From contig CM049416.1 in the NCBI GenBank assembly GCA_026929865.2, positions 19,157,001-19,221,000 of the forward strand: a stretch of 64,000 bases of DNA, in the 5' to 3' direction. The position numbers and the translations under genes are program-made. Origin of the DNA: Hyperoplus lanceolatus (taxonomy: Eukaryota > Chordata > Actinopteri > Uranoscopiformes > Ammodytidae). Positions 19,211 through 64,000 of the stretch are shown here, one piece after another. The notes beneath the pieces were generated by a model that worked only from the letters and a program-made list of their open reading frames with translations, searched no databases and had not been told where the DNA came from. Position 1 is the stretch's first letter; every line of letters begins with the position of its first letter.

Positions 19211-20014
19211 TTTTATGTTTTGATTTCTCTTTTAATAGTAGGATGAATGATCAGTATAAAAATATAATAACAAACCTCATAAAACAGACATACCCTTTCA
19301 AAGTAAACAAAAAGCACAGGCGTCACACACAATCCACAATGTACAATATCTCTCGACTCTACAGAATAAATCAAACAAATATTCGCACACCCATATTAAT
19401 CAACTGCATTCAAGATGTCAACACAGACACGCAGCGATGTTTTAAACCCATGCTTAAACTCACGGGGCCGGTGTTCTGACATTTTCTGCTCCCTTGTCAG
19501 ATTTTGCTACCTATCAGAAAATGCTACCCTACGTCATGGGTAGCGTATAGACCAATTATCTTTATGAAACGATGCACATTATTTTACACCACTACTCATC
19601 TAATGTACACGGTAGGAATATTGGGAGCATATTTTGATGCTGCTTTATAACGTGTTTATTGAAGATTTCAGGGGTAGGCCTACAGTAGGCTTTGTGAGAC
19701 CAATTGTCTCTATCAAATAATGCTCCCACTACAGAATCATGTTATTTTACACCACTACCCATGTGCACCCCCCCTCCCCTCCCCCACCACCGGCGAAAAC
19801 TTTCTCCAATCCGAGCCCGGTAAAGTTAACACATAGAAAAGCCTATCATTTTATTTCTATTTTCAGCAGCAAAGCCAGTGTCTACATGCACATGCTCACA
19901 GGTCAAAAGGCACAATTTAAACATATGTGTAGCATAATTGCGCAGTTAAAAACATGTTTTAAAGAAAATACTCGCCATCAGCCAAAAAGGTAGCAGAATG
20001 TGACAAGAGTACCT
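19211..20014. other. Intergenic, degenerate direct repeat
   Basis: About 800 bp downstream of mybpc1. Two similar blocks, around 19549-19600 and 19695-19765, share 'attttacaccactac' and neighbouring 'ccaatt' and 'atgctccc'-like words, suggesting an old tandem duplication. No gene recognised. Confidence 0.4.
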
Positions 20015-20767
20015 ATAGAGCTGAAGCAGAAGTGGCTTACTTCCGGGACATGGGACCTCTCGGCTCGAAAAATTACAACGGTAGTCAATGGAAAGAAATT
20101 TATTATTTTCTGGTCCCTGTCATGAAATGCCTTCGATTACACATATGTTTTGTATGGATTTAGATGGTATTTTTTCGTGCAAAGAATGGAACAATTTAGC
20201 GAGTAGAAGCTGGATACGGTCAGGTTTTGTGCAGAGCGCTTTTGTGGACTACAGCTCTTCGCTGCTCTTGACAATTATGATATACATCACCACCACTCGC
20301 ACCCGCTTAGCTCAGAAACATGGCTGTGTCTTTAATGCACTTTACCGCCTTCTTTCAATGACAAGACAAAAGTCTTCAGCGTGGCGAAAACCACTACACA
20401 AGTGGACATGTGGAGAGTTTCAATTTCTCGAGTGGGGAGATTGTTGGCGTTGTCCACGCCAGCCATTAGCATTAGCACTGTCAGTTGAGAAGTGGAGGGA
20501 ATGTGTTGAGGTGACGTCACAGAGGCGACAAGACTTGTAGTTGTAACATTTTTTCAAAAGCCGTTAGACGAATAATCATACAACATACCGTCAAACTCTT
20601 CACATGAAAAATAATCATTTAGACCCATACAAAACATATATGTAATACAAGGCATTTAATGACTGGGACCAGAAAATAGTAGATTTCTTTCCATAGACTC
20701 CCATTAATTTTTTTCAGCCGAGAGGTCCCATGCCCGTAATTCCGCCACTTCCGCTTAACAGCTCTAT
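20015..20767. mobile_element. Fold-back element with about 175-bp inverted arms
   Basis: Left end ATAGAGCTGAAGCAGAAGTG and right end (reverse complement) ATAGAGCTGTTAAGCGGAAG begin two inverted arms, roughly 20015-20190 and 20590-20767. Both contain 'catgggacctctcggct' and 'attttctggtccc'. The 400-bp centre has an open frame (20088-20540) with no resemblance I recognise. Superfamily unknown. It is probably a non-autonomous DNA transposon. Confidence 0.7.
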
Positions 20768-20778
20768 TTGCAGACACA

Positions 20779-21201
20779 GGTTGCGTTCCGAATCGCATAC
20801 TCTTTCTTTTTTCTATTCTACATACTACATCTGACGATAAAAAGAATCTAGTTAGGATGCAGTAGGCATACTATTGGGACATACTTTACTTATTTATTTC
20901 ATCATAACATTGCGCCTTGATCTTGCCTCTCTTGCTTTTATATCCGTCGCCGCATCCCCTGCTTGTTTTCATAACATGGACCTATAGGTTTCTGTCGATG
21001 TTAGGTCACTTCACGGCGCACTGGATTGTGGGTCAGAATCGCCCAAATAGGATGCACTTTTCAACACTAACAATCTTGGCCGCATGAAGTAGACCATCCG
21101 GTATTCTAAATCCATCCTAAATCTGGCCACAAGAATCGGGACATCCTAAATCTTTTTTCTACATACTATATAGTAGAAAGTATGCGATTCGGAACGCAAC
21201 C
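20779..21201. mobile_element. MITE with perfect 23-bp terminal inverted repeats
   Basis: A 423-bp element starting GGTTGCGTTCCGAATCGCAT and ending in its exact reverse complement (ATGCGATTCGGAACGCAACC), with a further ACT/AGT match inward. No coding capacity. A diverged relative lies at 47871-48180, sharing 'gatcttgcctctcttgctttt' in part and 'catcataacattgcgccttg'. End sequence and size suggest a hAT-type MITE, but no clear 8-bp duplication was found. Its right end abuts the large KDZ element. Confidence 0.75.
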
Positions 21202-21208
21202 CCATTGA

Positions 21209-21263
21209 GAAACGGAGCTCCACCGGAAATACGAAATTTCTTCTTCGTTTTTTTTTACTGGCG
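21209..21263 (+). repeat. KDZ element left terminal inverted repeat
   Basis: Starts GAAACGGAGCTCCACCGGAA, continues through 'atacgaaatttcttcttcg' into a T-run and ends 'actgg'. It pairs with 39275-39332 over its full length. A slightly longer alignment starting CATTGAG (left) and CATGGGG (right) is also possible, which would move the boundary out by six bases. Confidence 0.75.
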
Positions 21264-21751
21264 GCGATCACCTTGGTTATGGTGCTAGTAGACAGTAAAA
21301 TAAGTCAGTTTTGTTAAGGGTCCCAAGTGGCCAGACGGTGGTAAAAAGTAGATGTTGAGGTAGAAGATGCACAAGCAACAAAGTTTTGGTGTAGGCCACA
21401 TCTTCCGAAATCCGCCTCCTTTAATTCACATTTATCACAAGTAGGTCAATCACATACAAATGTAAACTCTTATAAATAAAACACAAAAGTGCCACCACAT
21501 TAAAATAAACAGCTCATTTTAAAAAGTGGGTGAGACATTAACGTCTAACACATGTTAAGTACAGACAGTTTCCATTGTAGATCCTGATTTGATTTATTAC
21601 CAGATTCCTTGTCCTCTAGTTAGTTAATTATTATATAATTTATATATTCATATTAGGCTATTGATCACGCAAGTGAACAGTAACGATCGCGTGCAGCCGC
21701 AGAATTACATTTCAACCAGACATGTTGTGTGCAGCCTGTCCTCTCAGAAAA

Positions 21752-21804
21752 TACGACCGCATAGGTCGTTTGTTCCGCCACATATTACGACTTATGTTTA
21801 CGTT
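21752..21804 (+). repeat. KDZ element left subterminal inverted repeat
   Basis: Begins TACGACCGCATAGGTCGT, itself a near-palindrome (ACGACC....GGTCGT), followed by 'ttgttccgccaca' and 'attacgact'. It matches the reverse complement of 38846-38900 with only a few changes and lies 540 bp inside the left end. A transposase-binding role is inferred only. Confidence 0.7.
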
Positions 21805-21931
21805 TCACATGTGGTGGCCCCCTAGCGGTTGTGTAAATAACGTCAATCTAACGTCTCAGTTCGCGCTAATATAATACCTTTGACCTCTTTTACTAATCAA
21901 TGTGCGACGAAACAAGAGAGGGAGGGGGCAA

Positions 21932-23733
21932 ATGCGCACATTTCGGCCCATTTTGCTGATCATCGTGGTCCTGGTAAGTTGGCTGCTTAGTGTTTTACAT
22001 TTTATATGGTTATTTATCTATGGGTTATTTGCGTGCTTTTCTGTTGTCATCTTCATGATTTTCCGTGGTCGTGTGTAGATGCGTTTGACACAATCAGTTG
22101 CGGATGCCACTGAAGTTATTTTACTATTACCTTTTAGGATGGGGCTAGCTCACATGCTAACGTGCCATGCTAACGTGGCAGCTATTGGATGCAGCTACCT
22201 AGCTAGCTGGTGCTATTTCCAATATAACATCCATCATATCAATGTAATTAAAATAAGCATTAAAAGAAGCAATAAACGTAATACAATACCTAAGTTAACA
22301 GCCATCATAAAATTAAAAGCAGCATGATGAAAAAGACAAGTAAATAGGGAACTAACAGCCAGGAATAATGATGTGATTTTTTTTAATGCATTATTTTCTA
22401 TTTTGATTGGTAATTGCTCACAGCATGTTTTAAACTATGTACATTACTAAATTTAATTCTGTGAAAATGTTCTGTTTATCATAAAGGAAAAACATGCAGT
22501 TGTAGATGTGCTGAACTGAAATCAGTAAACTGAATACATTTTAGGTCTCTTGTTATTTTCTAATTTAATATGAAAGTCAAATAAAAGCGTGCATGGTCCA
22601 TATTAGTGCTTTCAGATGTATACACACAAGTTGTCAAGAGTCTGGCAACTTATCTGTTATCACGGGCCCTGGTTGTAAGTATTCTCTGAGGTTTTGAACA
22701 CAAACTATTTATTCCTCTGGAATATCTTTTGTAATTTACTCTGCATTAAAGTGTAACTGCACCTTTTTACTTGTTTTTTGAGATAGAAGCTGAATTAAAT
22801 GACTATGTTGTTAAGGAACACATGTATGCTGGTGTTAATATTGAAAAAATTGCAATATGTTAAATATCGGCAATTTAAGAAATGTTTTGTATTGGAAATT
22901 ATTGTAGAGCTTTACTAAGATTTGTAAAAAAAAGTTTTATCTTTGGGTTCGAAAAATGACGCACATTAAGCACATTTTGTCTTAATGTGCGATTGTGCGT
23001 CATCACGTTGCAGCCGAGCTGGTCACGCCCTTTAAAGGTCCATGAGCTACTACTGTTATACCATCCCTCGAAGGATGTTATTTCGGGGGTTAACACCCTT
23101 CACTTCTACTGGCAGTGTGTCTGCATTATCTTGCTTGCACGCGCACACACCGGGACTCTTTCATTACTTCACTTGATAGACACGCTACCACTCGCTCTCC
23201 TCGCTCACACACACACATACACACAATGCCGCTCACTCACTTGCGCTACTCTGTCTCCTAACACTACGAAAGACACATCATCTACTTTTGAATTGCCTGC
23301 CAACAATTTAGAATAAAAAAAAAACTCCTCCACCTCAGACGGCCTATTTGTCTGTGGCATAAGAGCTCACATCGTGTAGTGACAGTGCCGTTAAACTTTG
23401 TGTCACTCGATTTTTCAAGGAAGTCATGTCATTCAGATCTTCCTGAGTGACAGCTAGCAGCTAGCCCGCCTTCTTCACAGACACCGCGCACCCCCCTCCC
23501 TCCCGAAAGTCGGCCTGCTGATGTCGGAATGTTTAAAAACAATGGTTCTAAAACTGAATTTAGAATCCATGGTCTGAGCGCATTTTTCAAAATTGTGCAG
23601 TACGCTCAAACAGGGGGTGCAGTTACCCTTTAAGAAGTATTTTTAATTCAGTGGCAGCAATTAAAAGCATGATTATACAACTCATTTGTGTTTTGTTTTT
23701 TTACAGGTCTTTGTGAATCCAAGCACCTTTTGA
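21932..23733 (+). other. KDZ gene 5' UTR intron and 22-codon upstream ORF
   Basis: A strong donor (cctg|gtaagt, exon end 21973) and the acceptor ending at 23706 (tttttacag) fit a 5' leader intron. Joined, they give a short frame from ATG 21932 to TGA 23731-23733: 22 codons, hydrophobic in the middle (LLIIVVLVFV). The main ATG is 130 bp downstream at 23864. Leader structure is inferred from splice signals only. Confidence 0.4.
22746..23633. mobile_element. TTAA-bounded element, family H, inside the KDZ leader intron
   Basis: TTAAAGTGTAACTGCACC on the left matches the reverse complement of GGTGCAGTTACCCTTTAA on the right, with TTAA at both borders (22746-22749, 23630-23633). It is 888 bp long with no coding sequence recognised. 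It contains a hairpin at 22956-23003 built on 'atgacgcac' and 'gtgcgtcat'. Confidence 0.6.
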
Positions 23734-23863
23734 TATAGAAAATACGAGAAAGCCAACGGCCCTTTTTAGGGCCACTTTGTTATTCTGTGTTTTGTTGTAC
23801 AAACATTTTTATTGTGGTGTTATTGTTGTTGTTGTGTTTTTTGTTTGTTTGTTTTGTCTAACA

Positions 23864-26800
23864 ATGTCTTCTGAGCACTTTAGTGAACTGCAGGAATTGC
23901 TGAAGGCGGGGAATGACTTGGCAGATGTGCTAGCAGCCAGAAGAGTAAAAACTTTTCTATTATTTCTCCATTATGGGATTTAACCTCAATCCATTTTTGA
24001 TTTTTAAAAAACACTTCTGCTGCACAAACCTGAACATTATGTTGATATGATAATGATATCATCCTTGTTTTTACTTTCAGCCTTCGAAGCCAAGAAACCG
24101 ACGGGGGACTGGAGGCTCCAGTGTTACGTGGAGGAAGAGGGACCAGGATGGGAACATCGTACCCCAACATTTTCGGCGGAATCGATCTGGTCAGCAATAT
24201 TAAATAGTTAGTTACACTGTCATTCATAATTTTGAATGCCTTTGGTCAACAATAATTTTTACTTTTTCATATTTGTGTTTTCAGTTCAGCCTGTCGCCCC
24301 TAGGGAACCCCCTTGGGTGGATGAGTCGCAGACGGCTGATATTTCTCAGGATGTCCCAAGTCTTGGTGCGCATATTGAATTGTGACATTTTAAATACAGT
24401 CAATCTGAGCAATGAATGATTTACCAATTTTTCTAACTCCTTTTTTTCCATATTTGTGTTTTCAGTTCAGTCTGTCGCCCCTAGGGAACCCCCTTGGGTG
24501 GATGAGTCGCAGACGACTGATATTGCTCTCAGAATGTCCCAAGTCTTGGTGAGCATATTGAATTGTGACATTTTAATGAATGATTTACCAATTTTCTAAC
24601 TCCTTTTTTTATTACCATATTTGTGTTTTCAGCTCAGCCTGTTGCCCGTAGGGAACTCCTAGATGTTGGGGAGTCGCAGACGGCTGATATTTCTCAGGAA
24701 GTCCCAAGTCTTGGTGCGCATATTGAATTGTGACATTTTAAATACAGTCAACCTGAGCAATGAATCGAGTAACAATTTTTCTAACTCACTTTTTATTTTA
24801 TATATATCATATTAGATCAACATCTTCAGACACTCAGAAATCTGCTGAGTTCTGTCACTGTCCCTGCATCAGCAGAAGAGGAGGAGACACCCACCATGTC
24901 TGCATGGACCAGAAGACAAACAATCTGCGAAAGAAAATTCAGGGCTGCAATGCCAGAGCTTCTGAATTCCATGTTGGCAGCAGAGACTGTGAACAGGCAT
25001 CGCTGTCAGCAATGCAAAACTGTTGACGCTGTGGTCCGGTGCCTTGACTGTGTTGCCTCAGGAACTCAGTTTCTCTGTTCAGCATGTGACGTGACCATCC
25101 ACAGGAAAAACATCTTCCATGACAGAGAGGCCATGATTGATGGTTTTTTCGAACCCATTCCCCCCACATCCTTTGTGGTGTCCGGTGAAGGTGGCCAACA
25201 TCAACTTGGTGAACAAGGTACATACAAAGAAATAGTAGATTTACCCTCACACTGTTTTCATGATGTGTAGTACAACATCTGCAGGTGCAGAATATAATAT
25301 GTCCAAAGTTTCCTTTAACTGTTTCAATGTGTTGTACTTTTTGATTATATGTCATAACTGTCCAGACATTTTCTTTACTGCAGTGTGCCTTCTTCCGATT
25401 CCTCCACCAACCCAAATCTGCTCCTGTGGTCCAAACCAAGACTTTTCCATTGTCCCTGGAAAGCAGACTGTCTTGGTGACTATCAACGGTATGGTTGCCT
25501 CTTCCTTTGTAATTTATAGGTGATGTGACGTCAAGCATGTAAAATGTTGACTATTATCCTTTTTGTGCTGTGTTGTATAGAACATGTTCAAATAATAGGT
25601 TTGTCTGTTTTCAGGTCCATACAAATTGTGCTTGCCTGCTGTGTGCTGTCCAAGTTGTTCTAGCAAATGGACTCCAGGTATTAGTGACTTGCTCGGATGC
25701 AGATACTGGCCAGCAACAACCAGCTGCCAACTCCTGTACAAGTTTGATGTCTTCACATCATTTGAGCAGATGAAGTTAGCCAGCCCAGCTTTGTCTCAAC
25801 AAGCATTCATCAAAATGCTTGAACATCGATCCCTTCGCACAGGACGGGTAAGAACTTTCTTTTTATTTGCAGGATTCTTGATATTCTAATCTTTGATTAC
25901 GGAAAGTATTAACCAAAGTAATACCATCGTTTTTACAGACGGGCCATATCTGTGGCGATACCTTCCACAGAGTCTTTCGAGAGTTTGCTTTCTGCAATTT
26001 CAAGAAAGAAGATCTCTGCTTGGTTGAGCCCTTCCAATGTCCAGCATGCACACCAGACATGCTGGCTATATCTGTAGATGGAAATCGAAAGCATTACCGC
26101 TTCAAGAAGTCCAAGGGGTGAGTGGAATCATTTTTCCATTAAAATTAATGATATATTAAATTCACTCTAACAGTTAAAAATTCAATAATTTGTCTCATGT
26201 CATGTTTTCATTATCAGAACTTGAAAACTATTGTAAACAATCAAAAACCTAATTATATTCATGGAATTACAAACAGAACGTAGTGTTATACAGTGTATTA
26301 AAATGCTTATATGTTCCACATTCACCATAAGTTAATACTTTAAACCCAACACATCACCCAATTTGACCATCTTGTGATGTTGAAGTACAATGACAGTCCA
26401 TTAAACCTGCAGTGTGTAGAATTTGGGGTTTTATTTCCTAGCAGATTTTGTAGAAAGTATTTATAATATCCATAAGTACGTTTAATTTAGTGCATAATAG
26501 CTGAAAACAATGTTTTGAATTATAGTTGAAATGTCATCAGGTGCATTGTTTAAAATGTAGAATTGTTCTTGCTGTCCTTGAAGGCCACTGCAGCTTCATA
26601 TCTAAGTGTTTGGGGTTGGAATGGTGAGTTTTTGCATTCTAGAACTTTGTAGAACTTTCTTGATGATGCCATATTACACACTGCACCTTTAAATACTTCA
26701 GTAACGTTTTATGTCTCTTCATGGACCACTTCAATGCCAAACATCTTTAAGGATGTTATTCACTTTTAGCAATCATTCTTTTTCTTACATTTTGACATGT

Positions 26801-29800
26801 GTGATAACAAATTATTCTCAATTAACAGGACTGATGAACCATCGCTTTTTGAAGGACGGTTCATAGCTGAAGATGCTAAAGTGTCTGCCTTTGTAGACCA
26901 GATTAGAAGCCAGATGTTGAGTGTAAGGTTTTCTTTATCTCACTTTACTTTATTTTTCATCTATCCTAGTACTACATGTAACAGATTGTATTTACTTTCA
27001 GAGGACTGGTCGTGATGTCTGTGGGCCAGCCACATTCACAGCAGGAAGGGAAACGTCCCAGAAGTCCAGGGCCAAGGTAGATGAGGAGGGCTTGCAAATA
27101 GCTGTGTGCAGGCATGGAATGTTGCTGCAAGGCCTGAACCACTACCGTGGGGAGATCTATGCCTATCCCATGTTCCTGCAGAAAGAGCTGGCTCAAGCTG
27201 CAAATATAACCTTCTTTTGCATGGACCTTACCTGCAGGTAGTCATAACCATTGCTGAATCATAACTGAATTTTTCATTGATGTTTATTTTATCCAGTATT
27301 AAAGGCCTTGAAAATATTAACATGGTTATTTTAGCACTTGGACTTGAACATTACATTTTTGAGCAACAATAAACTTTCAAAAGACACACTTAAAATAACT
27401 CTTAACTCTTGTGCATCCCTTATAAAGATGGCTACATGGTGTTCTTTTTTTGGTTGCTGGGTTTGTACTGGTCATTTCCTAGGTATAGGGTTCTCTATTT
27501 GCATTTATGCAAACATGCATCTGAAATACTACTGCCTTTCCTATTACAGGTATTGGCCATATTTGGAGAAGATGGCAGACAAGTTGCCTGAACTCCGATC
27601 CCTTACAGAGATGAAGCCTTTTCTCTCTGTAATGCATGCCAAGGCTCACACTGGCAAATGTGAGGTACAGTGTGCAATTCAATTGTTTTTGAGAAACATA
27701 TACCTATAGTCGCTTGGCATGAAATATTTAATCAATCAACCCTTATGTATACTCAAGGGACACTGTAGTTTCCCTCATTAGCACTGATGACGAGATTAAA
27801 AGTAACAAACAATATGCAGAATCGCAAAGGGTACAGGGTGCAGTAAAAACATAAGGGTTAAATTAAGTAGAAAAGATAAACAGGTAGTCAGTTAAAACAA
27901 ACAAAGATAAACAATATTACTATGATGCTCTTAATCTTCAGGTGTTTTAGAAACTAATCAATGTTACTTTAAGATCATAAATTACATTGTTTCTTTGAAT
28001 TATTTTACTGAATTAGCTCTTAGCATCAATGTTAATTGAGGATGCAAAAAAATTAAATCAATACGATTTGAAATGCTTAATGGCATGATCCTATTGTTTG
28101 TTTTTGGAGCAGGTGAGGTGGGGGGGCAGAAGCCAGGATGGAGCAGGAAATACTGTTGGAGAGGAGGTGGAGCAGGTCAACAGCTTCCTATCAAGGGCAG
28201 CCCTCACCACAAAGTACATGACCAAGTCAGGTTAGTTAAAGGATGATTGTATGCTTTGACATGATCCAAGATGTGAATTGAATTGATTTCAATGTATGTC
28301 TTCTGTTTTGTTTTTACAGGAAGATCCGACATGATTACTGTGCTTGCCATCGGGTGGAACCACAGGAAGGTGGACAGTCTCCACAAGACACTGGCAAAGA
28401 GATTTGTCAAAGTAAGATTTCTGCATTGTATGTTAACTTTTACATTTGTCATTTCACTTTTACATGTAAGTAGTTTGTAGTTTTGACTTATGTTGGTTAA
28501 GGAAAATGATACAGCAAAGATTAAAACATAAAACGAAACAAACAGCAGATAGATTATGAATAAAAACAAGCCCAAATATCAAATGGCACCAAATCTTGGT
28601 CAAATCTTGGTGAAATTAAACGTAAACTACAGATTACACCTTAAGGTTTATTAATGCATTTTTGTCTTTTGTAATATTCTAAAAAGACAACACAGAGGGC
28701 AGAAGTGGAGGCAGCCAACCTTGAGAGTCTCAAACAAGATCTCAACATCTCACTCGAGGAAACAGAGCAGTGGGTGTTAGAAGTCAAGCAATGGGCTACC
28801 ACTGGTATGTAAGATGATGGCTGATGTGTACATTTTGTACTGCCTTGCCATACTTTTGGTTTCTGTGTTTTAATGATCATCTTTGCTTGTTTTTTTTAAG
28901 AGAGACATATCATGTAGTCAGGAGGAGAGGTCCAGCAGAGAGAATTGACCGAGATTATCTACTCTCTCAGAAGAAAAAAGCAAGACCTCTACAGACAAAA
29001 CGGTATTTGCTAATATGTCACTTAAGTTTTTCTTTTAGTTTAGTTTCATTTTTCGCCAAAAATCTTTTTTGTAATTACTATTGTCATATTACAGACAGCA
29101 ACCAAACAAGGCAGAGGAAAAGAAGGAGACTTGGAGAGCTAAAAAAGAAACTCCAAGAGAGGATACTGCACTACAACACCACTGTTGCTAGTGAAGATAA
29201 AATCGACAATGAAGCAGCATGCAGTCTCTCTGATGACGTCATGCTGCCTTGGGAAGCACAAGGAGATGGTAAGCGAAGTTAGATATCGTACAAACATCTG
29301 AGCCTCAATACTATTAGCTAAGCGCTGAATCGTCTGGAAATAGTAGGGAAGCTTGTTGAGAGTAAAATGGATGGGACACTGCTAGATAGGCAGATGAAAC
29401 ATGTTTATATTTGTTGAAAGATTGATAAATTACTGGTATTGGCTTATTTAGGGTGTACTTGTCGTTCATACCATGCTCGATTGAAAAACTTTTTATATTG
29501 TACTTCATATTTGTTTTACTGTAGCTGCTCTCCTCCTCATGTGTGTTTTTGTCTCGAGAGAGTTGATCCCCACTAACCCTCCAACTAACAAAAAGGGAAA
29601 AATTCAGTTATTGATTTTACGATAGGTTTTAATAGTTAGCTGCAATGGTAGCCACCAATTAAACCATTGTGAGCCTCCTCATAATACTTACGAGCTGGCA
29701 AATGGGGAAACCATTTTTTAACATTTTTAGTGTTTTGATTTTGTAACATCTGTGTTTGTTTTTTCAAAACAGTGATAAGCCTCCGCTCCAAGAGGCGTCT

Positions 29801-30684
29801 CTTTGACCAGGTCATGCTTGTCAGGCGTCTGGAAGAGGAGAAATCAATCGTTGTGAAGGAAATGACCCAGCATTGTCAGTATCTGAGAAGGTCATTGGAC
29901 AAACTGGACAATTTCCTTCTCCAGGCCAAAGAGGACCTTGAGAACCACAGTATGTTCCACAAAAACCTAATTTATATAACGGGACGCATGTACATGGAGT
30001 GCGGGGTGCTGATGCTGTTACAGCTCTTAACTGTGCGAGAGCGTTTGTGTTGCAGCTGTGTGAACTGCTCATTTTCAGAACGTTGCAGTCCGGCTAGTTT
30101 CAAGTTTTTCCGTCGCAAATATTTGGTGTGAACTGGCCTTAGATTGCCTGATGTCAAAATCACAACTCGGTGAATATCTCTTCAAGATCTGCTGTCAGTA
30201 CTGTGTGCACTGAAAAGAAAAAAAACCTCTGTTAATACACGGCATAGGCTCTGTTAACTGGTATGTAAACAAAGAGTCCGCCGCAGCTAAAAACATGCCA
30301 GTTTACACAACCTAGCTTGAATATCTCCTGAATTTTCCGCTGATTTTGACAACAAGCTTACTCCAGAATCGCTGACATGTAAAGCATGTTAAGTCCAAAT
30401 GTTTGTTAAAAGCTGAAAAGTAATTCAGTAATTTATTTAACTTTTTTTCTACAATTCTTACTTTAGCTTCTCCCAGAGGGCTGACAGAAGAGGGAGACAA
30501 GGGACTGCACTGCTGTGTTTTACAGAAGAAGCACATTCTGCAGAGGAAACTGGGCACAGTGACCAGAACCTATACACATGTCGTCACAGATCCTTCCTTT
30601 CTCATGCTGGAGGAAGGTATCGAAGATTGTGAAGAGAGCGAACAGGACAAGAGCAGTGAAGAATTCTCTGAGGAAGAATTGTAA
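23864..30684 (+). CDS. KDZ-superfamily transposase, 18 coding exons, 902 codons
   Basis: Likely DNA transposase of the Kyakuja-Dileera-Zisupton group. Exons: 23864-23944, 24081-24189, 24285-24365, 24633-24713, 24816-25217, 25384-25488, 25615-25847, 25939-26117, 26829-26922, 27002-27237, 27550-27664, 28113-28230, 28320-28411, 28687-28804, 28903-29002, 29099-29268, 29773-29949, 30467-30684. All borders are GT/AG, phases agree and the sum is 2,709 bp with no internal stop. A Cys/His cluster near residues 180-215 (HRCQQCK, CLDC, CSACD, H) is the CxC-type zinc cluster of the family. Family core: WTPGISDLLGCRYWPAT, CPACTPDMLAISVDGNRKHY, CRHG, YRGEIYAYP, FFCMDLTCRYWPYL, VMHAKAH, GEEVEQVNSFLS. The D of VDGN (about 410), D of MDLTC (about 530) and E of GEEVE (about 589) are the best candidates for the RNase H-fold acidic triad. 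The C-terminus is coiled, with an acidic tail. One extra exon copy (24466-24548) must be skipped. Confidence 0.88.
24268..24770 (+). repeat. Tandemly triplicated exon array in the KDZ gene
   Basis: Three copies of a unit made of an intron end, an about 81-bp exon and an intron start, with exons at 24285-24365, 24466-24548 and 24633-24713 and spacings of 181 and 167 bp. Copies 1 and 3 are 81 bp in phase 1-1 (27 residues, with PPWVDESQTADIS in copy 1), so they can be gained or lost freely. Copy 2 is 83 bp because 'tctcagg' became 'gctctcaga'. Including it shifts the frame and gives a stop in copy 3. Confidence 0.85.
26401..26692. mobile_element. TTAA-bounded MITE, family G, in a KDZ intron
   Basis: Left TTAAACCTGCAGTGTGTAG pairs with right TACACACTGCACCTTTAA; TTAA borders at 26401-26404 and 26689-26692. 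The 292-bp element sits in the intron 26118-26828 of the transposase gene, so it inserted after that gene structure existed. Confidence 0.7.
30218..30385. mobile_element. MITE family E remnant
   Basis: Shares 'cataggctctgttaac', 'ggtatgtaaacaaag' and 'cagaatcgctgac' with the family E copies at 59399-59711 and 63426-63661. Both ends are degraded. It lies in the last intron of the KDZ gene. Confidence 0.5.
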
Positions 30685-31079
30685 AAATACTAGTGCAGTG
30701 CCCGTAGGAGCAATAGCTTATGCATGCTTAATTGTAACCCGTCTATCAAAGTGGGACACATAAACAGATGTGGCCTACACATAAGTGTCACACAGTCATC
30801 AATGTGACTTGTTCTTTCTTTAATATGTGTTGCGCCATATAATCCTCTATTCTTTATGGGCAAAGCAGGTGAATTTTTTTTTATTGCTAATTGCAGCTTG
30901 AAGGCAGCAGCATTTGTCTTTCCAAAAAAAATGAAGGGCATTTTTGCATCTTACATAGTCTCTAGCTTGTTTAGGTGTTATAGTTTCTAACGAATTTAAA
31001 ACATTCTGTGTAAGCGATCATGTTTACATTCACCAGCAACTGACCCCTCACACGTCTAGTCATCCGCATCCGCCCTCCC
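30685..31079. other. KDZ element sequence downstream of the transposase stop
   Basis: AT-rich sequence without a recognised feature. I did not find a canonical AATAAA shortly after the stop codon at 30684, so the transcript end is not defined. Confidence 0.4.
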
Positions 31080-32478
31080 TTTGTTCCCAATCCCCCTTCT
31101 CCGTACCTCTCTCCTGCTTTCAACTCCCCTCAGCGACTTACTTAACAAAACTCATCCGGACTTCCAAACCATCTGCCTGCCAACTTGACCCCCTGCCATC
31201 CTCCCTGGTTATAGCCTCCCTTCCCTCTCTACTACCCCTGATAACAGCCATTATTCATTCCTCTCTCACCTCTGGTTCCGTCCCATCCCAGTTCAAATCT
31301 GCTGCTGTTACACCGCTATTGAAGAAACCTGGTTTAGACCCCCAACATTTTCAATAACCTCCGCCCCATCTCCAACCTGCCATTTATCTCAAAAATTCTG
31401 GAAAAAGTAGTCGCATCACAGATTCAGGCCCACCTCTCCAACAATAACCTCTATGAACAGGTCCAATCCGGTTTCCGTCCCCGTCACAGCACAGAAACAG
31501 CACTCATAAACATCACCAACGACCTCCTGATGGCAGCTGACTGGACATTTATCCATTCTCATCCTCCTTGATCTGACAGCAGCCTTTGACACCATTTCCC
31601 ATTCCATCCTCCTCGACCGACTAGCCTCCATTGGTATATCCGACACACCCCTAGACTGGTTCCATTTTTATCTCTTTGGCCGCACTCAATTCATTCAGTT
31701 AAAATCCAGCTCTATGTCTCCTCCAAACCTTCATCCACCCTCCCACCCCCTCCCTCTGTGCCTGCCTACAGGAAATCAAATCCTGGTTCCCCTCCCACTT
31801 TCTCAAACTTAACAGCAACAAAACCGAGATAGCCCTCATTGGCTCCAAATCTACACTCACCAAGCAACCCAGTTTCACCCTCTCCATTGACAACTCCTCA
31901 GTTTCCCCCTCCCCTCAGGTTAAGAGTCTGGGTGTCGTCCTCGACAGCACCCTATCATTCCATACCCATATCAACAACTCCATCCGGTCCGCCTACTTTC
32001 ACCTTCGAAATATCAACCGCCTCCGCGCGTCACTCACTCCCAACAGCGCCGCTATCTTGGTCCACTCTCTAGTCACCTCACGCTGATTTCTACACAACTC
32101 CTTCTGTTTGGTCTCCCTGCACAAACGCCCCATAAACTCCAGCTGGTCCAAAACGCTGCTGCACGTATTATCACCAAAACCCCCCCCCCTGCCATCTGTC
32201 ACATCACCCCCATCCTGCACCAACTTCACTGGTCTTCCCCAAAACACCGTATTGAATACAAGATCCTCCTCAATACATTCAATGCCATACATAACCTCGC
32301 CCCCCCCTCATATCTGTCTGACCTCATCCAAATCAATACTCCCACACGGTCACTTAGATCCACCTCCTCCATCAACCTACACGTCCCCCCAGCTCGTCTG
32401 TCCACCATGGGGGCTCGAGCTTTCAGCCGCTCCCCCCACGCCTGGTCGCAGCGGCCAATCAAATCAGAGGGAGGCGGG
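31080..32478 (+). pseudogene. Dead L2/CR1-type LINE reverse transcriptase fragment
   Basis: C-rich sequence on + that translates in pieces to non-LTR reverse transcriptase: AAVTPLLKKPGLDPQ, RPISNLPFISKILEKVV, FRPRHSTETALINITNDL, LDLTAAFDTISHSILL and downstream [16 protein letters not shown]. Frames change between blocks. The segment from about TQFIQL (31690) to LYVSS (31711) has lost the piece that would hold the YADD-type catalytic motif, so the enzyme cannot work. It is nested inside the KDZ element. Base composition (C-rich, Y-rich) differs from the surrounding AT-rich DNA. Confidence 0.8.
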
Positions 32479-32747
32479 GTTTAGCCGGAGACTACTCGGA
32501 CACGCTCAGATAGTTACTCGTCGTTACTTTGGCCTTCAGTGCGCGCATGTATTCGCTGCCAGCATGATATAAACTTAGATATAACTTCTACATATCTGGT
32601 CCAAAAAACCTCACAATCAATCAAGGATGCACACCTTCGTGCCGTGCGAAAGCCATATCCGGAACCTCAGGCCGATCTGACAAACAATGAGAGAGATGCG
32701 AGCCACAGACAGACACACGTCACGGGTCACGTGATGCTTTCTTGCTT

Positions 32748-32748
32748 T

Positions 32749-32780
<32 letters not shown>

Positions 32781-32796
32781 GGATAGATAGATAGAT
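32748..32796 (+). repeat. (GATA)n microsatellite
   Basis: About eleven tandem GATA units with one interruption (gggata) at about 32780. Confidence 0.9.
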
Positions 32797-34989
32797 GAAC
32801 CGGAGGGCTGATAGCTTAGATTTTTTCGTGTTTTCTTTTTATTAGTTAGATTTAAAAAGAGGAAGTCCTGGATCCGACGGTCCAATGCGTGGCTGGTCCA
32901 TGCTTCCTTTATTTTTTTTTAACCAGTCCTCTAGACACTTGTAGTTTTGAGTTTGTTTAATAAATTATATTATTTAATAAAACTTTTGTTTCTGTGTATT
33001 TAATCTTATATGTTGCTGGTCACTAAACACTAGCAACCAGCTTTGGGGAAGCAGTAACAGTCATAATCTACTAATGTGGAATGGAAACATGTTATTGTTA
33101 GCTTTTATACTTTAGTGTTTAGCAAATGGACATGACCTTTGACATTTCAGAGTAAGATCAACATGGCAGCATTTGCTTAAAATTTTAGCTGGTGAAATGT
33201 ATCTTGGTATAAAGACTAGCTATAAGACATAACCCATGTAAGCAGGGCATTACCCACGTTTGTCTCTTGTGTTTTTAACCTACTGCAGTAACACATAATG
33301 CTTTAACAAAATGTTTACTGAAATAATTAGACATCTTAATAGATTTCATATGGCAACATGAAACAATTTGATTTTGATGAGCAGATCTTATATTGAATTT
33401 AGATTATTTTATTAAATGCTTTCAAACTTAAATGTGATTTCCTGCCTCGCTGTATGTCTCTATTTCCCTATCTGTGCCCCCATACCAAGCTCTCCATCAG
33501 CAATCTTTCTGTAAGGCAACCGTGCTGGATATAGAACTAGAGTATGGGACTACTTTGGTGCGGTGTTAGTTGGGTATCTGCATGTTTACCTCTGGAACCA
33601 GCCTGTGTGATTTGACCACGCAGGCCATGCCCCAGGTCCATGGGTATGCCACACACATTTTTTTGTGTCGTTACTTTCATCCTTTCTGTCTACCTGGATT
33701 GGTTTTTTACTGCCTGTCAGAACATATTTTTTCTCAGCATGGCAGAGTTTAGGGTTGACAAAAGGGTGGAGGGAGTGATATTATAGGCTTCAGTTGCCAG
33801 ATTGGGTAACGCCTCATCTAGTCATGGAAGCATTAGTGTTATCACCTGTCTCATTTACAACTACAGAAACCACCAAAAGTCCCATGATTTCCAATTCTGT
33901 TTTGGTATACTAAGAGGATCGTTGGGAGGGAGAACGGAGGAGAATGGGATGAGGAGAGTGACCTCCATGAATGAATGTAAAGATGCTGATTTGACTCATT
34001 TTCAATGGTCTCACTTATTTCCAGGGCCCTATATGGGCTCTGATGTCACTTTGCATCATCTCGCACAATGTTATACTTGTTATAGGCATATGCCTATATT
34101 TCAGAATGAAAATGCGTTTGGGTAACACTTGAGAACATTGCTTAGATCTGTCTTTTAATAGTAAGGCTATAAAGAAGTTTCCATCACGGTTTTATCCGTT
34201 ATTAGTTCATTGTTAAGTGGACGCTTGAAATATTACTTTCATGTTATTTTAATTTCAAACATCAAATAATCCCTTCTCAACTCGAAATATAATGGCATAT
34301 CAAAAGTTCTCTCCAATAATTTAAAACATATTTTATTTTTAACTTTTTGCCAAGGAAGAAGTAGCTGACACACAACAATAAATATCAGCGGCTTCTTTGC
34401 TCACACCAACAAGGGGGCATGAGTACGATTTCCGCCGCGGAAAATCAGACGACTTCCGGCTGGCATGGTTGTAGCGGAACTCGCGCTGCTCCGGCTATGG
34501 TTTTATTAATTTTACAAATATCTTAAGTAGACGCATATATTAAAAAAATTCGTAGATTAAATTGCTTGAAGTTTCATAATGATCGGCCGCTTCCCTAAAT
34601 ATGTCATATATTATCCAATAAATCTATGTTTTAGCTACCCCAATTTGCAAACACAGAACTACCAACCCAAATACCACATTTACAATACCAGCCAATATGT
34701 CACAAAAAATTATTATTATATATTATCTTAGTTTTTTGTGATGAGCATCCAATGCCAATGCACTACACTGGCCAAACATTTAACTACTTTGTGAGTGCCT
34801 TGAGTTCACACTCAGCTTAGAGTTGTTTCCCGATGACACATGCCCTGCTCTATCAGCTGAGATGCGGCTGGAATGAAACTGCTCTAACTCTTGACCCTTG
34901 TCAAAACTTTTTCACAGTTCAAAATCAAACAAAGTTTCTGTTCATACATACCACTACTGTCAGCTTTCCTCCTTGTCTTTTTTCTTTTG
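32797..34989. other. KDZ element interior, no gene recognised
   Basis: AT-rich DNA with short open frames of no recognisable similarity. A GC-richer patch at about 34,415-34,500 ('cgatttccgccgcgg', 'cttccggctggcatgg') has ETS-like CTTCCGG words and could be an old promoter, but nothing else supports that. Confidence 0.4.
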
Positions 34990-36045
34990 GAGGGTGGATG
35001 GGTAGAGGCAGGAGACACATGGAGGGTTGGGGAAGGAGGTACAGGAGACACATGGAGGGTTGGGGAAGGAGGTACAGGAGACACATGGAGGGTTGGGGAA
35101 GGAGGTACAGGAGACACATGGAGGGTTGGGGCAGGAGATACAAGGAGGGTTGGGGAAGGAGGTACAGGAGACACATGGAAGGTTGGGGAAGGAGGTACAG
35201 GAGACACATGGAAGGTTGGGGAAGGAGGTACATGGAGGGTTGGGGCAGGAGATACAAGGAGGGTTGGGGAAGGAGGTACATGGAGGGTTGGGGAAGGAGG
35301 TACATGGAGGGTTGGGGCAGGAGATACAAGGAGGGTTGGGGAAGGAGGTACATGGAGGGTTGGGGCAGGAGGTACATGGAGGGTTGGGGAAGGAGGTACA
35401 TGGAGGGTAGCAGGAGTCACATGGAGGGTTGGGGAAGGAGGTACATGGAGGGTTGGAGCAGGAGATACAAGGAGGGTTGGGGCAGGAGGTACATGGAGGG
35501 TTGGGGAAGGAGGTACATGGAGGGTAGCAGGAGTCACATGGAGGGTTGGGGAAGGAGGTACATGGAGGGTTGGGGCAGGAGACACATGGAAGGTTGGGGA
35601 AGGAGGTACAGGAGACACATGGAAGGTTGGGGAAGGAGGTACATGGAGGGTTGGGGCAGGAGATACAAGGAGGGTTGGGGAAGGAGGTACATGGAGGGTT
35701 GGGGCAGGAGGTACAAGGAGGGTTGGGGCAGGAGGTACAAGGAGGGTTGGGGAAGGAGGTACAAGGAGGGTTGGGTAAGGAGGTACATGGAGGGTTGGGG
35801 CAGGAGGTACATGGAGGGTTGGGGAAGGAGGTACATGGAGGGTAGCAGGAGTCACATGGAGGGTTGGGGAAGGAGGTACATGGAGGGTTGGGGCAGGAGA
35901 CACATGGAAGGTTGGGGAAGGAGGTACAGGAGACACATGGAAGGTTGGGGAAGGAGGTACATGGAGGGTTGGGGCAGGAGGTACATGGAGGGTAACAGGA
36001 GTCACATGCAGGGTAGGGGCAGGAGACACATGGAGGGTAGGGGGG
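34990..36045 (+). repeat. G-rich coding-like minisatellite, 24- and 33-bp units
   Basis: About 40 imperfect tandem units built from ggaggtacatggagggtt plus 'ggggaa' or 'ggggca' (24 bp), a 33-bp form with an extra 'caggagaca', and a few shorter 'agcaggagtcacatgg' variants. Most unit lengths are multiples of three and stop-free, so both strands stay open for about 1.2 kb (R-R-Y-M-E-G-W-G on +). I take this as a by-product of the repeat, not a gene. Confidence 0.9.
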
Positions 36046-36448
36046 TTGCCCATTGTCACTATTGGAAAGAAGAACATTGTGGTGTTGGCCATATTAATAA
36101 CAGTTGCACACACATATCAAAATATTTTTGAGATGTCAAACAAAATACGTAATGATTTCAAAGCAAATTTTCAAATATGGTAGTTGCAGTTCATACAATA
36201 AACCCATATTTTGAAGGTATAACACAGAATTTGATAAATTATTGTAGGTAACTGATTAAACTGAGTTATTCAATGCTAAATAATACATTAAACCGTTTAG
36301 ATTGAATATTTCTTTTACATTTTTTAATACTTAGAAACCTTATCTCTGTCAAAATCAATCTTGTCAATGTTGTAGAAATCAAGTACTAGTGGAACTGATT
36401 TGTCGTGATGTGAGCTGCAAACGATCTATTGAAGAAATGATAGTAGAC

Positions 36449-36484
36449 ATAGTCCCATTGAAAGACATAGTCCCATTGAAAACT
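36449..36484 (+). repeat. 18-bp tandem duplication
   Basis: The unit 'gacatagtcccattgaaa' occurs twice in direct succession. On - it duplicates F-Q-W-D-Y-V within a short open stretch. Confidence 0.7.
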
Positions 36485-36870
36485 CTTCACATTCATGTTT
36501 ATAGAAGTCATGGTGATGAAGACATTGTTTGTTATAAAAAAGACATCTCTTTGTTTTTGAATTTTCAAAATTAAAATCTTCAGTGACTTTCCCTGGATAG
36601 ATACTTTTATGGCTCATGCATACGCCCCCTTCAGTGAGACAGAGTTAACCTACTTGCTGGCTGCCTCATTTCATGCTTTTTTCAGCGCTGTTTTATGTCA
36701 GATCAGCATATTATTTAGTCATGAAATGAAATGGCATTAAATGTCATTGTAACTCATTCCGAGGTTAAAATAGAACGATATTTCTTCAATCTTGTCCATA
36801 GCCGACATGGTCTAACCCCTGCTGCAACGATAGACAACACAGCACACACTCCTTTTATAATTGTTAATTT

Positions 36871-36999
36871 GTGGCCACAACATACGTATCTCGTTCCCAC
36901 GAATTATTAAACTGTGGCCACAAATTAATTATCTCGTTCCCACAATTTATTAAATTGTGGCCACAGATTATGAAGTCATGCAAACAGATCACTAAGTCG
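36871..36999 (+). repeat. 43-bp tandem repeat, two full units and a partial third
   Basis: Units start with gtggccaca at 36871, 36914 and 36957 and contain 'tctcgttcccac' and 'ttattaaa'. The third unit diverges after its first 14 bases. The GTGGCCAC core is itself palindromic. Confidence 0.8.
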
Positions 37000-37357
37000 G
37001 GCAAACAGATTTTTTTTTCTCTCCCAGATGTCACCAGAGGGGCTCCGTACATTACAACAATTTCAGAGAAGAACAATATTTTATGCTCTTGATTAATAGT
37101 CAGTGAACTAAAGTTTCTAGGAGGGAATTAATATATCTGTGCAATTAGAGCGATGTTACTGCTGCAAATGACAAGATAGCATTCACTATTGAATAGACAC
37201 GCAACAACCTTATAATTTTCATTTAGTTTAAAATTATTGTCTCAGTACATTTAAAAAAACAAATTAATATTGTAATGCTGGAAAAGTCAATGGAGTTATA
37301 GTCACGTAGCAATATAAATGTAAATATAAGTGATTGAAAAGAAGAAAAAAAACATAC

Positions 37358-37552
37358 CAAAAGATTAGTTGAATCGAACAGCTTGTTCAGGCAACTATTC
37401 TTCTTTTGCGTGGTAGCCCAATTTGTTCTTAATTTTTCTTTTTGTTTCTGAAGCTTATTTTTGTATGGCTGTTTGGCCCCACAAAAACGGCATGTTTTAG
37501 TAGCTACCCCAATTTTTCTCGAACAAGTAATACAATCCTTTTGGGTAGGCAT
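37358..37552 (-). CDS. Candidate first exon of a zinc-ribbon protein carried by the KDZ element
   Basis: On -, an ATG at 37552 opens 65 codons that end exactly at a gtatgt donor (exon end 37358, phase 0). The sequence has paired cysteines C-I-T-C and C-R-F-C spaced by ten residues (C7, C10, C21, C24), followed by a K/Q-rich basic stretch (KNKLQKQKEKLR). This is a plausible zinc ribbon. A later exon at about 36,390-36,500 (FQWDYV repeat, then HFFNRSFAAH and a stop) is possible but unproven. I do not recognise the family with confidence. It lies on the opposite strand, near the right end of the element. Confidence 0.42.
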
Positions 37553-38397
37553 CTGGAGAATGGATGAAACATATATGATGATTAGAACACTTTATGCTTA
37601 TTATCAGAGGTTACACAATTATATCATCCATAGTGATTGGACAGGAGTTTATGTCTTTTACCTACGAAAATCTGGTTTACAACGTGAGCAAATGTGTTGG
37701 CTTTCAAATAAAATTGTTACAGCTAAAGAACCGGTTCCCCAAATTCGTTTTATCCTATGGTTTTATCATGTCAATACATAAAAACTCTGTATTCAAGGTA
37801 GCCTAGTCTAGCCCACTAGGGAAAAGGTCTCTAAAATTAGTCTGAAAATCGGATGTTTGTATAATTAACAAATACCTGAGAATGACATTGTGATTTGGAA
37901 TTCTAACAAATGCATCCGAACGAAAAGCAGCCCGGAAAGTCGCATGAAGGCTGCAGGTCTTGCATGTAGCACGAACTTCTAAATCCAACAGATCGAATCG
38001 AGCTATATTGCTATAAGAAAGGTTTAATCAGCTGTTACCTAACACAATGCCTTAATGTGTATTAAATATAATGATGTATATAGAAAATTTAAATACATTA
38101 AATAAAAATATCGGTGATTTAAATAAAAATATCGGTGATTTATCAAAGCACTCATGTCTGCACTAGCTAACTTTTTCAAAGATAACTTTTGGCTAACCAG
38201 GTTCTGAAAACGTTATATTCTGAGGTGACCATAATACCAAAAGTGATCCATGTCACCAAACTAGACATAGAGAGAACACAACAATGAACTGATTACATAT
38301 TATACCGCTCTCAAATTGTTTTACCGCTATTGGATCAGCCATTTACCTTCGTATTAGCTCCTCGGTGTCATCAAGTGCGACGAAAAATATGTGACAT
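37553..38397. other. KDZ element interior
   Basis: Apart from a short direct repeat around 38,100-38,140 ('aaataaaaatatcggtgatt' twice), nothing is recognised here. It is the 5' flank of the minus-strand zinc-ribbon exon. Confidence 0.4.
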
Positions 38398-38797
38398 GGT
38401 GCGTTCATGTGGTTTCAGACACATCCAAAAACCGAGTTTCCGAGTCGAAAAATGCAAGTGAAAGAAGAGTTTATTCCGATGTGTCGGAATAAACAACTTG
38501 GAAACTCGGGAAAGATTTTTGTGACTCATCAACCTGACGGTTAAAAGTAGAGATGTCTATTTCTAGTAGGCCAATGTTAACGAAAATACTGGAGAAAGTT
38601 ATCAATATAGAGTATAACTCTGTGCGCAGTAACAGTCCACAAGTCTTCTTCTTAGCATCCATATTGTTGTTTGTTGTTGTTACAGTATTCTGACTTCCAC
38701 ATGACATATGAGAGCCGAGAGCAAGTGAGCACGCGCTCAAGTCGGAAGGACGACTTTACAACTCGGACCATCCGAGGAGCACATGAATGCGCCATGA
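38398..38797. mobile_element. MITE with TGGTGCGTTCATGTG inverted ends
   Basis: Left TGGTGCGTTCATGTG pairs with right CACATGAATGCGCCA. The interior carries inverted matches such as 'cgagttt' and 'aactcgg'. At about 400 bp and non-coding it is probably a hAT-type MITE nested in the KDZ element. The target duplication was not resolved. Confidence 0.55.
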
Positions 38798-38845
38798 GGC
38801 CTATTACCTCCCGCAACCTGTAGAGGCGCTCGTTAGCTCGTTTTG

Positions 38846-38900
38846 AATACGTAACAATGAGTCGTAATCTGTGGCGGAACAAACGACCTATATGGTCGTA
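38846..38900 (-). repeat. KDZ element right subterminal inverted repeat
   Basis: Reverse complement begins TACGACCATATAGGTCGT, keeping the palindromic ACGACC....GGTCGT core, then 'ttgttccgccacagattacg'. It lies about 430 bp inside the right end. Confidence 0.7.
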
Positions 38901-39274
38901 TGAATTGGAGGACTTGTTGAGCCAGTGGCACAGACGTTAAACAACTCCTGTTAATAAATAAATAAATAATGAGATACATACAATACAATAGGTTTATTAA
39001 TCTGAATGTAGAGCATGTTCACGATGTGTAAGAGGGCTGAGAACTACGCTACTGTCATATCAGATACATGATCAGCTTCATTCAATGATTCGTTTGACAA
39101 CTGTTATACAAGTATCGAGAATGGCTTTCTGTCCTCACTGTTTTGAGCCAGGAAAGGGAGAGAGAGACGAAGACTCAGACAAGCAGCTTTTGGAAGTCAA
39201 GATAGTGATATATTTGTTACAACAGTGAAGAGAAACTGCAACCTCACACATGCTCACGGCCCGCCTTCCTCTCC

Positions 39275-39332
39275 AGTAAAAAAAAAAAAAAAACGAAGAA
39301 TAAATTTCGTATTTCCGGTGGAGCTCCGTTTC
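39275..39332 (-). repeat. KDZ element right terminal inverted repeat
   Basis: Reads on + as 'ccagt', an A-run, 'cgaagaataaatttcgta' and 'ttccggtggagctccgtttc'. It is the inverted partner of 21209-21263. The A-run is longer than the partner's T-run, as expected from slippage. Confidence 0.75.
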
Positions 39333-39849
39333 CCCATGTGTCTGCCACAGACATATAAGATATAAATAGGCCCAGGTCTGAGCAAGACTGCTCCAAGTCG
39401 AACGAGGCTAATGACAAGTCACCGGGAAACCCCGTAGTAACTGGCGCTAGCATGAAAGGGTAGGCTAACTGTACCCCATGCTGTACCCCCCGTCTCGCTA
39501 TTTCAAGCATCAATTAACACACATAAAAGTCAGTTTTAACAATAATTTAACAAACTATAAGATACCTGCACAACGGGAATTTAACCCGGCAACTCACAAA
39601 GCAGTGTGCAATATGACATAATTGTTTAAGAGCGACAAACAAAAAGCCTATTAAAAAAAGGGATAGAGATGTAAACATTACTTACCAGCTCCGAGCGTCA
39701 GGTCAGGTCACTGTATCGGATTTTTGTCCCCTTACGAGAAGTTGTAATGTTTGATTAGCCTACTGTTTTGTGTTAAATGTTCAATAAAAAAAAAATAATA
39801 ATAATAATAATAAAAAAAAGAGGTCAGTGCTCACTGAAGCTGGGCAGTG

Positions 39850-44824: not shown

Positions 44825-45021
44825 CCTGTATTTTTTTTTTTTTTTTTTTTGTAAAATGTTTTAATTCTTTTATTTAAATGTTGTATTTTTATCCATGTTT
44901 TAAATTTGTTCCTTTTTTTTTGTATTTGTATTCTTTATTTGATTTTAACCCTGTGAAGCACCTTGAGTGGCCCTGTGCCTGAAATGTGCTCTATAAATAA
45001 AATTGCCTTGCCTTGCCTTGC
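44825..45021 (+). repeat. LINE 3' UTR and terminal CCTTG repeat
   Basis: A T-rich stretch, then 'aagcaccttgagtgg', 'ctctataaataaaattg' and about four CCTTG units at 44,998-45,021. Short tandem repeats in place of poly(A) are typical 3' ends of L2-clade LINEs. Confidence 0.75.
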
Positions 45022-45557
45022 CTATGACAATTTTCTAAATATGTCCCTGAACACACCAGCGTGACATCCCTGACATCAAACATAAATATTAAAGTGTTTA
45101 GTTTTAATGTAATACTTACTGCCATTGACATAGGAAGAAATCATTTGATAAACAATTGATTCCCCAACTTTTATTTTTGCACTTTTATTTTATTATTTAT
45201 TAATTTATCGGCCACAACAGTAGTATTTTACTATTTAAGATATTATTATGGTTTAAATAAACTCGTTGTTGCCATTTAAACACAGTATTTAAATTTAAAT
45301 ATCCCGGTACACTTCCGTATTTATTCCTTTCCGGAGTCTCGCTTCCTGCGGAGACGTAACTCGATCAGAAACGTATAACAGACTTTCGACATTTCATGGT
45401 TCCGCCGTGGAAATGGCCTCGTCTAGTCACCCAGCTATAAATGCCAAATGAGCTGCGGTACTTTGGAGTCAGCGGAGAGAAGATAGCGTTATTTGAGCTA
45501 CCGCCACCCGGGAGAAGTTTGTTACCTTCATTTGAGGAGTGACTAGGCAGAAACACA
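45022..45557 (+). promoter_or_regulatory. chpt1: chpt1 upstream region and 5' UTR
   Basis: The gap between the LINE tail and the chpt1 ATG. From about 45,300 it becomes GC-richer with ETS-like words ('cttccg', 'tttccgg', 'cttcctgcgg') and no TATA box, in keeping with a housekeeping promoter. The start site is not visible. The LINE ends about 540 bp before the ATG. Confidence 0.45.

Positions 45558-56832: not shown

Positions 56833-64000
<7,168 letters not shown>

Follow-up and report, generated by a model that had tools for sequence, protein, structure and literature searches.

We analysed a 64,000-nucleotide window of the Hyperoplus lanceolatus genome (contig C22, positions 19157001-19221000) and found that nucleotides 21732-38919 are very probably one copy of a low-copy DNA transposon of the KDZ superfamily, which has inserted into a non-autonomous transposon of about 1 kb that belongs to another family. 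As a KDZ-superfamily DNA transposon with an open multi-exon transposase gene, the element is a member of an already known superfamily. Genome-wide counts refer to the 527 contigs (806.7 Mb) of this genome, and positions are those of the window unless a contig (C4, C16 and so on) is named. A first-pass annotation had described an 18-kb KDZ (Zisupton-like) transposon with an intact-looking transposase. The superfamily and the intact-looking gene were borne out, but the single 18-kb element bounded by the outer repeats was not, as the ~1-kb family to which those repeats belong normally lacks a KDZ interior. The element and its ends are as follows:

21732..38919, forward strand: KDZ transposon (CA..TG termini, 17,188 bp) lying within the outer ~1-kb element; placed from the ends of other copies and from uninterrupted outer elements
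21732..21807, forward strand: left terminal repeat of the KDZ element, containing the palindrome ACGACC-N5-GGTCGT
38844..38919, reverse strand: right terminal repeat of the KDZ element, reading inward CAACAAGTCC..

Two inverted pairs, one inside the other, had to be told apart. The outer pair (21203-21256 and 39285-39338; 54 bp at 94%), which the first-pass annotation had located at 21209 and 39332 and taken for the KDZ ends, is real but belongs to the ~1-kb family; its 19-base core occurs at only these two sites of the window when 3 mismatches or fewer are allowed, against a chance mean of 0.01. The pair further in (21751-21807 and 38844-38901; 88% identity), whose core is also confined to two sites within the window, was previously reported as a second pair; it is present but not secondary, because it forms the true KDZ ends. 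When the left end (query 21724-22074) was compared with the genome, copies started from query position 8 or 9 (window 21731/21732), with unrelated flanks; these included C4 (99.1% over 3,858 bp), C17 (195 bp at 100%) and C11:13.03M (76 bp at 98.7%), as well as C16 and C189. Copies of the right end (query 38600-38919) stopped at 38919/38920, again in unrelated flanks, on C15 (1,086 bp at 99.8%), at C11:17.02M (183 bp at 100%) and on C16, C12 and C18. Ten ends outside the window were read base by base (left ends on C4, C17, C11:13.03M, C16 and C189; right ends on C11:17.02M, C12, C15, C16 and C18), and none of the ten departed from the boundary seen in the window, which reads CAGCCTG in five cases and CAACAAG in the other five. 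Because these boundaries agree although the adjoining DNA is unrelated, we place the element at 21732-38919; its terminal repeats, about 76 bp each, are intact at both ends of the window copy.

Genome-wide, a scan for the KDZ terminal core (up to 2 mismatches) returned 15 matches, and its reversed control returned 0. Just two pairs of cores, one in the window and one on C16, are placed and oriented like the ends of a single element. The C16 relative is bounded and complete, spans 5,573 bp (5.6 kb) and carries a perfect 8-bp duplication, GTCGGATC, at ends of the inner type. On contig C189, one left end and three right-type cores all face one way, and the KDZ copy on C21 lacks its final 44 bases. 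Just inside the left KDZ end, the stretch at 21808-21830 is CCNCTAGGGGGC-like and may resemble a CTCF site.

The outer element surrounds these ends, and its own left part is interrupted twice:

20004..21731, unoriented: the outer ~1-kb copy, left part, in which two other elements are inserted; comparison by eye with other copies puts the left terminus, CAAGAGTACC, at 20004
38920..39345, unoriented: right part of the outer ~1-kb copy, 95% identical to locus L007 over 38920-39345; the final bases to about 39370 are altered
20779..21201, unoriented: miniature inverted-repeat transposable element (MITE) whose inverted ends match perfectly over 23 bp, lying in the left terminus of the outer element
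20015..20767, unoriented: fold-back element with 173-bp arms at 81.5%, nested in the left terminus of the outer element

The left outer arm was found at no fewer than 40 genomic places including the window, a lower bound in that the best 40 of 1,125 candidates were scored. We compared seven copies besides that of the window (L002-L008). In all seven, sequence equivalent to that up to 21723 was followed by 4 or 14 bases and then by the equivalent of 38920 or 38923 onward, and none of the seven contained the KDZ insert; four copies measured between their end repeats were 1.0-1.1 kb long. A pattern scan for the uninterrupted junction identified 43 genomic places (reversed control, 0); this pattern detects only uninterrupted copies by design, so all 43 lack the insert. 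Since other copies run uninterrupted at the break, at 43 places genome-wide, the window holds an ordinary member of the outer family that has been broken open. The earlier annotation had expected the outer repeat at other loci in pairs 10-20 kb apart, and had regarded a predominance of solo repeats as grounds for abandoning its view; neither pattern was found, and the copies are instead pairs about 1 kb apart with their own 8-bp duplications.

The true termini of the outer family, CAAGAGTACCTATTTGCAGAC on the left and GTCTGCAAATAGGTGCCTCTC on the right, lie outside the repeats described before. CCCATTGA/CCCATGTG, which had been offered as a KDZ target duplication, could not be confirmed as such. 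Four outer copies were read at both ends, and their 8-bp duplications were perfect in three (GTGCTGTC, GAAGCTTC and ACTGACTG) and differed at one position in the fourth (GCTTTTGA/GGTTTTGA). Duplications of this length would fit a hAT-type non-autonomous element, but 8 bp does not single out hAT. In the window, the MITE at 20779-21201 splits the outer terminus, at a point where other outer copies go on with CTATTTGCAGAC. Nested transposons can thus mislead end-finding by inverted repeats. A second copy of this MITE family lies in the window at 47892-48191, in an apparent intron of a gene that, judged by its translation, is probably choline/ethanolamine phosphotransferase-like. Exact-pattern scans of viral contigs gave 0 matches for the outer repeat and 0 for the inner repeat.

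We considered whether a single KDZ element of about 18 kb is bounded by the outer repeats, with the ~1-kb elements as its internal-deletion derivatives. This would explain why both outer arms seen in the window recur in the ~1-kb copies, and it would agree with a KDZ insert that has no target duplication in the window. It is nevertheless extremely improbable: at all ten ends read elsewhere, the KDZ boundary falls on 21732 or 38919 to the base, with unrelated DNA outside it, the inner repeats are located exactly at those ends, and the C16 relative is duplicated at its inner ends.

The nested KDZ element encodes a transposase, modelled as follows:

23864..30684, forward strand: KDZ transposase gene with 17 coding exons, 866 amino acids without a stop, and Pfam KDZ and CxC3 domains
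Exons 1-6: 23864-23944, 24081-24189, 24466-24548, 24830-25217, 25384-25488, 25615-25847
Exons 7-12: 25939-26117, 26829-26922, 27002-27237, 27550-27664, 28113-28230, 28320-28411
Exons 13-17: 28687-28804, 28922-29002, 29095-29268, 29773-29949, 30467-30684
21932..21973, forward strand: possible first exon, coding or leader, ending at a good splice donor (score 6.7, from approximate frequencies)

This model has canonical introns throughout and 866 open codons; splice sites were scored with approximate frequency tables, and confidence is lowest for the N-terminal exons. At 24263-24741, a 27-codon exon and its splice sites occur in triplicate, and 8 of the 54 combinations tried stayed in frame, giving products of 843-923 amino acids, of which the 866-residue version is one. 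The open spliced gene agrees with the first-pass annotation, but its exact version of 18 exons and 902 codons was not reproduced (18-exon versions gave 893-897 amino acids). Profile comparison of the spliced product, which that annotation had proposed as a check, matched Pfam KDZ (PF18758) with an E value of 2.6e-27 (96.4 bits against a cut-off of 26.6; profile positions 3-217 of 217) and CxC3 (PF18804) with an E value of 2.3e-10 (40.7 bits; cut-off 26.6). CxC7 was not among the Pfam matches of the product at E ≤ 1, and whether Pfam holds a CxC7 model was unchecked. The term Zisupton-like is supported at the level of the superfamily and tentative in the narrow sense. A solved-structure relative of the transposase was not found at E ≤ 1. 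The acidic catalytic residues are presumably D380, D499 and E558 or E559 of the 866-residue model, an assignment that draws on one relative on C15, in which D499 and E558/E559 are conserved and D380 falls outside the alignment.

Searching the genome with the KDZ profile identified 18 places. The window was not among them because its exons are too short for the profile. With the transposase protein as query there were at least 67 exon matches, including the window's own (best 52 of 267 candidates scored), and those at C22:2.42M, on C4 and on C21 scored about as well as the window's own exons. These three loci hold partial KDZ copies that are mostly 98-99% identical to the window, with some stretches on C21 at 90-97%. 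Substitutions relative to the window numbered 0 in 766 exon positions and 15 in 3,086 others for C4, 2 in 1,895 and 24 in 3,192 for C22, and 5 in 768 and 19 in 1,242 for C21. Pooled over the three copies, these counts (7 in 3,429 against 58 in 7,520) amount to about four-fold fewer substitutions in exons (Fisher p=1.4e-4), with the reservation that the copies are kin and not independent. Alignments below 96% identity were omitted from the count, which drops the 90% stretch on C21 and the C21 parts L052-L053, so that C21 is represented by L055 only. With the same reservation about related copies, low exon divergence is what would be expected of a transposase gene that was under selection until recently. 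Together, the near-identical partial copies and the smaller number of exon substitutions indicate that the KDZ family has recently been mobile, as the first-pass annotation had suggested; copies elsewhere share the same termini. The ends of a recently mobile vertebrate KDZ family are thereby fixed to the base, along with an 8-bp duplication, which makes it possible to design an excision or transposition assay.

An open frame over 17 exons, and exon substitutions fewer than those outside exons, could also be expected if the host had kept the KDZ gene as a domesticated gene with the repeats as relics. We regard this as very unlikely, given that the terminal repeats are intact at both ends and that near-identical partial copies with the same termini occur in several places, as in a recently mobile family. 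The data can be explained without invoking retention by the host.

Several observations weigh against our reading of 21732-38919 as one nested copy of a low-copy KDZ transposon. The window copy has no 8-bp target duplication (its flanks are GTTGTGTG and AGCCAGTG), and for its left flank there is no match among the 43 uninterrupted outer copies. The right flank agrees with the outer-family junction in its short variant, and our guess is that a small later change occurred at the left flank. A second full-length, near-identical copy was not found; those on C4, at C22:2.42M and on C21 are partial in the stretches examined. The C4 and C22 copies have frameshifting indels in modelled exons. The exon at 24466-24548, the middle one of the triplicate, is 2 bp longer in the window than in C4 and C22, and because of this difference the window frame is kept only with particular exon choices. 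Finally, the spliced transposase model is a prediction from genomic sequence. On C4, the KDZ copy is broken at 25583 by a tandem array of ~175-bp units (C4:28556488-28559673); these units also match L038 9603-10000, adjoining the right-end copy on C15.

Two internal segments contribute to the length of the element:

30690..32787, forward strand: insertion with non-LTR (non-long-terminal-repeat) reverse-transcriptase fragments (RVT_1, 1.8e-7 and 5.9e-4)
34995..36043, unoriented: minisatellite inside the KDZ element

The C21 copy joins 30689 directly to 32788 and lacks the reverse-transcriptase segment, which therefore probably arrived later. This segment and the minisatellite explain part of the element's large size.

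Among the stretches examined, several loci had one KDZ end only: a left end on C4, C17 and at C11:13.03M, and a right end at C11:17.02M and on C12, C15 and C18. As the genome-wide scan shows no partner core nearby, these copies are either truncated or have a diverged second end. At C11:13032044-13032120, 77 bp of the KDZ left end stand alone, starting with CA and ending with TG, between two TCATTTAG 8-mers; this is a one-ended insertion with an 8-bp target duplication. Near C12:24392495 (L047 1501-1774), 274 bp of the right end split another repeat, one that corresponds to window positions 44486-44699 and 44985-45031, and there is no duplication. Target duplications were likewise absent from C4 (20 kb), C17 and C15 (10 kb each), C11:17.02M (9 kb), and C12 and C18 (~3 kb each). 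In C4 and C11:17.02M the 8-mers at the flanks reappear inside repeats only, never at a second end; in the others they do not reappear.

Elsewhere in the genome, sequence corresponding to 21876-21926 or 21964-22016 occurs as inverted matches in eight pairs, with 3.7-23 kb between partners. Four of the eight enclose transposase matches (C12:17.039-17.047M, C9:1.213-1.220M, C21:27.905-27.928M and C1:16.343-16.354M), and these four may on that account represent other KDZ lineages that carry this sequence at each end.

The right part of the KDZ element contains a candidate coding exon on the opposite strand:

37358..37552, reverse strand: zinc-ribbon exon of 65 amino acids, with clean splice borders, of a likely second gene; relatives lie near KDZ genes

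In Pfam, this exon is UPF0547-like (9.7e-4, below the curated cut-off). It has 13 genomic matches including the window, and seven of them lie within 30 kb of a KDZ-gene match, compared with 0.03 expected from 36 KDZ loci, a set compiled by hand from the KDZ profile and transposase protein searches. When the window, C21:28.24M and C189 were left out, four of ten matches were still co-located. Between the window and C189, synonymous differences are saturated and nonsynonymous sites are 28% different, with no stop, and the bounded C16 element contains a weak, decayed match (E 0.005).

On the basis of these sequence comparisons, we tentatively propose that CxC3-type KDZ transposons of this fish may be two-gene elements, with a transposase and a conserved opposite-strand zinc-ribbon protein encoded from the other end, and that they may integrate by a single end and leave short, 8-bp-duplicated insertions. 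Both parts must hold for this proposal, and we stop short of favouring it. A host-derived passenger, or an unrelated repeat that lies near KDZ elements by chance, is a possibility of real weight. Only a single exon was found, and a search for further zinc-ribbon exons in the window, C189, C2 and C18 gave none, only a repeat common to C189 and C2. In four of the seven co-located loci (C189, C9, C7 and C2), the exon is placed differently from that in the window with respect to the KDZ gene, in strand or in order, the C189 exon sits beyond the terminal-repeat cores, and 6 of the 13 matches have no KDZ match inside 30 kb. Against such a passenger stand the co-location, with or without the three omitted loci, the contrast between saturated synonymous and limited nonsynonymous change, and the decayed match within the C16 element. 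Our literature search returned no paper combining CxC3 and KDZ, and for UPF0547 with transposon it returned only papers that, judged by title, concern other subjects. One paper on Ectocarpus mentions both Zisupton and an accessory gene (PMC12477816). Should the zinc-ribbon gene prove to be a genuine partner, KDZ would be added to the groups of transposons that rely on a second protein; we present the companion gene and the one-ended insertions as leads.

Under the mechanism that we propose, the transposase, which probably has an RNase H fold, would bind ACGACC-type sites in the KDZ terminal repeats, cut at the CA/TG ends and integrate by an 8-bp staggered cut. The opposite-strand zinc-ribbon gene would supply a helper or a DNA- or chromatin-binding protein.

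Excerpts of papers on known KDZ systems allow a partial comparison. Zisupton of platyfish, as described there, resembles the present family in being a KDZ transposase of fish with a multi-exon gene and 8-bp duplications (PMC12730594, PMC9297572), the latter seen here in the C16 relative. It differs in its protein, which has at least 1,393 amino acids and a CxC7 domain (PMC12062965), compared with about 843-923 amino acids and CxC3 here. KDZ1, KDZ2 and KDZ3 of Cryptococcus neoformans are reported in the excerpt as 9.2-11 kb long, with terminal inverted repeats of 139-241 bp, CxC1, and duplications of 8 bp, or 4-8 bp for KDZ2/3 (PMC12810828). Like the present family, they are mobile, end in terminal inverted repeats and show 8-bp-type duplications, whereas the element described here has ~76-bp repeats, CxC3 and a length of 17 kb that is partly due to later insertions. 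Kyakuja of Laccaria shares the CA..TG termini, but the excerpt gives it 7-bp duplications and no terminal inverted repeats (PMC12730594), in contrast to the terminal repeats found here and the 8-bp duplication of the C16 relative.

Across the whole window, no Rfam family reached its gathering score and no tRNA was found. Outside the KDZ element, an inverted repeat of 664 bp at 90% identity lies at 57178-57841 and 58022-58659.

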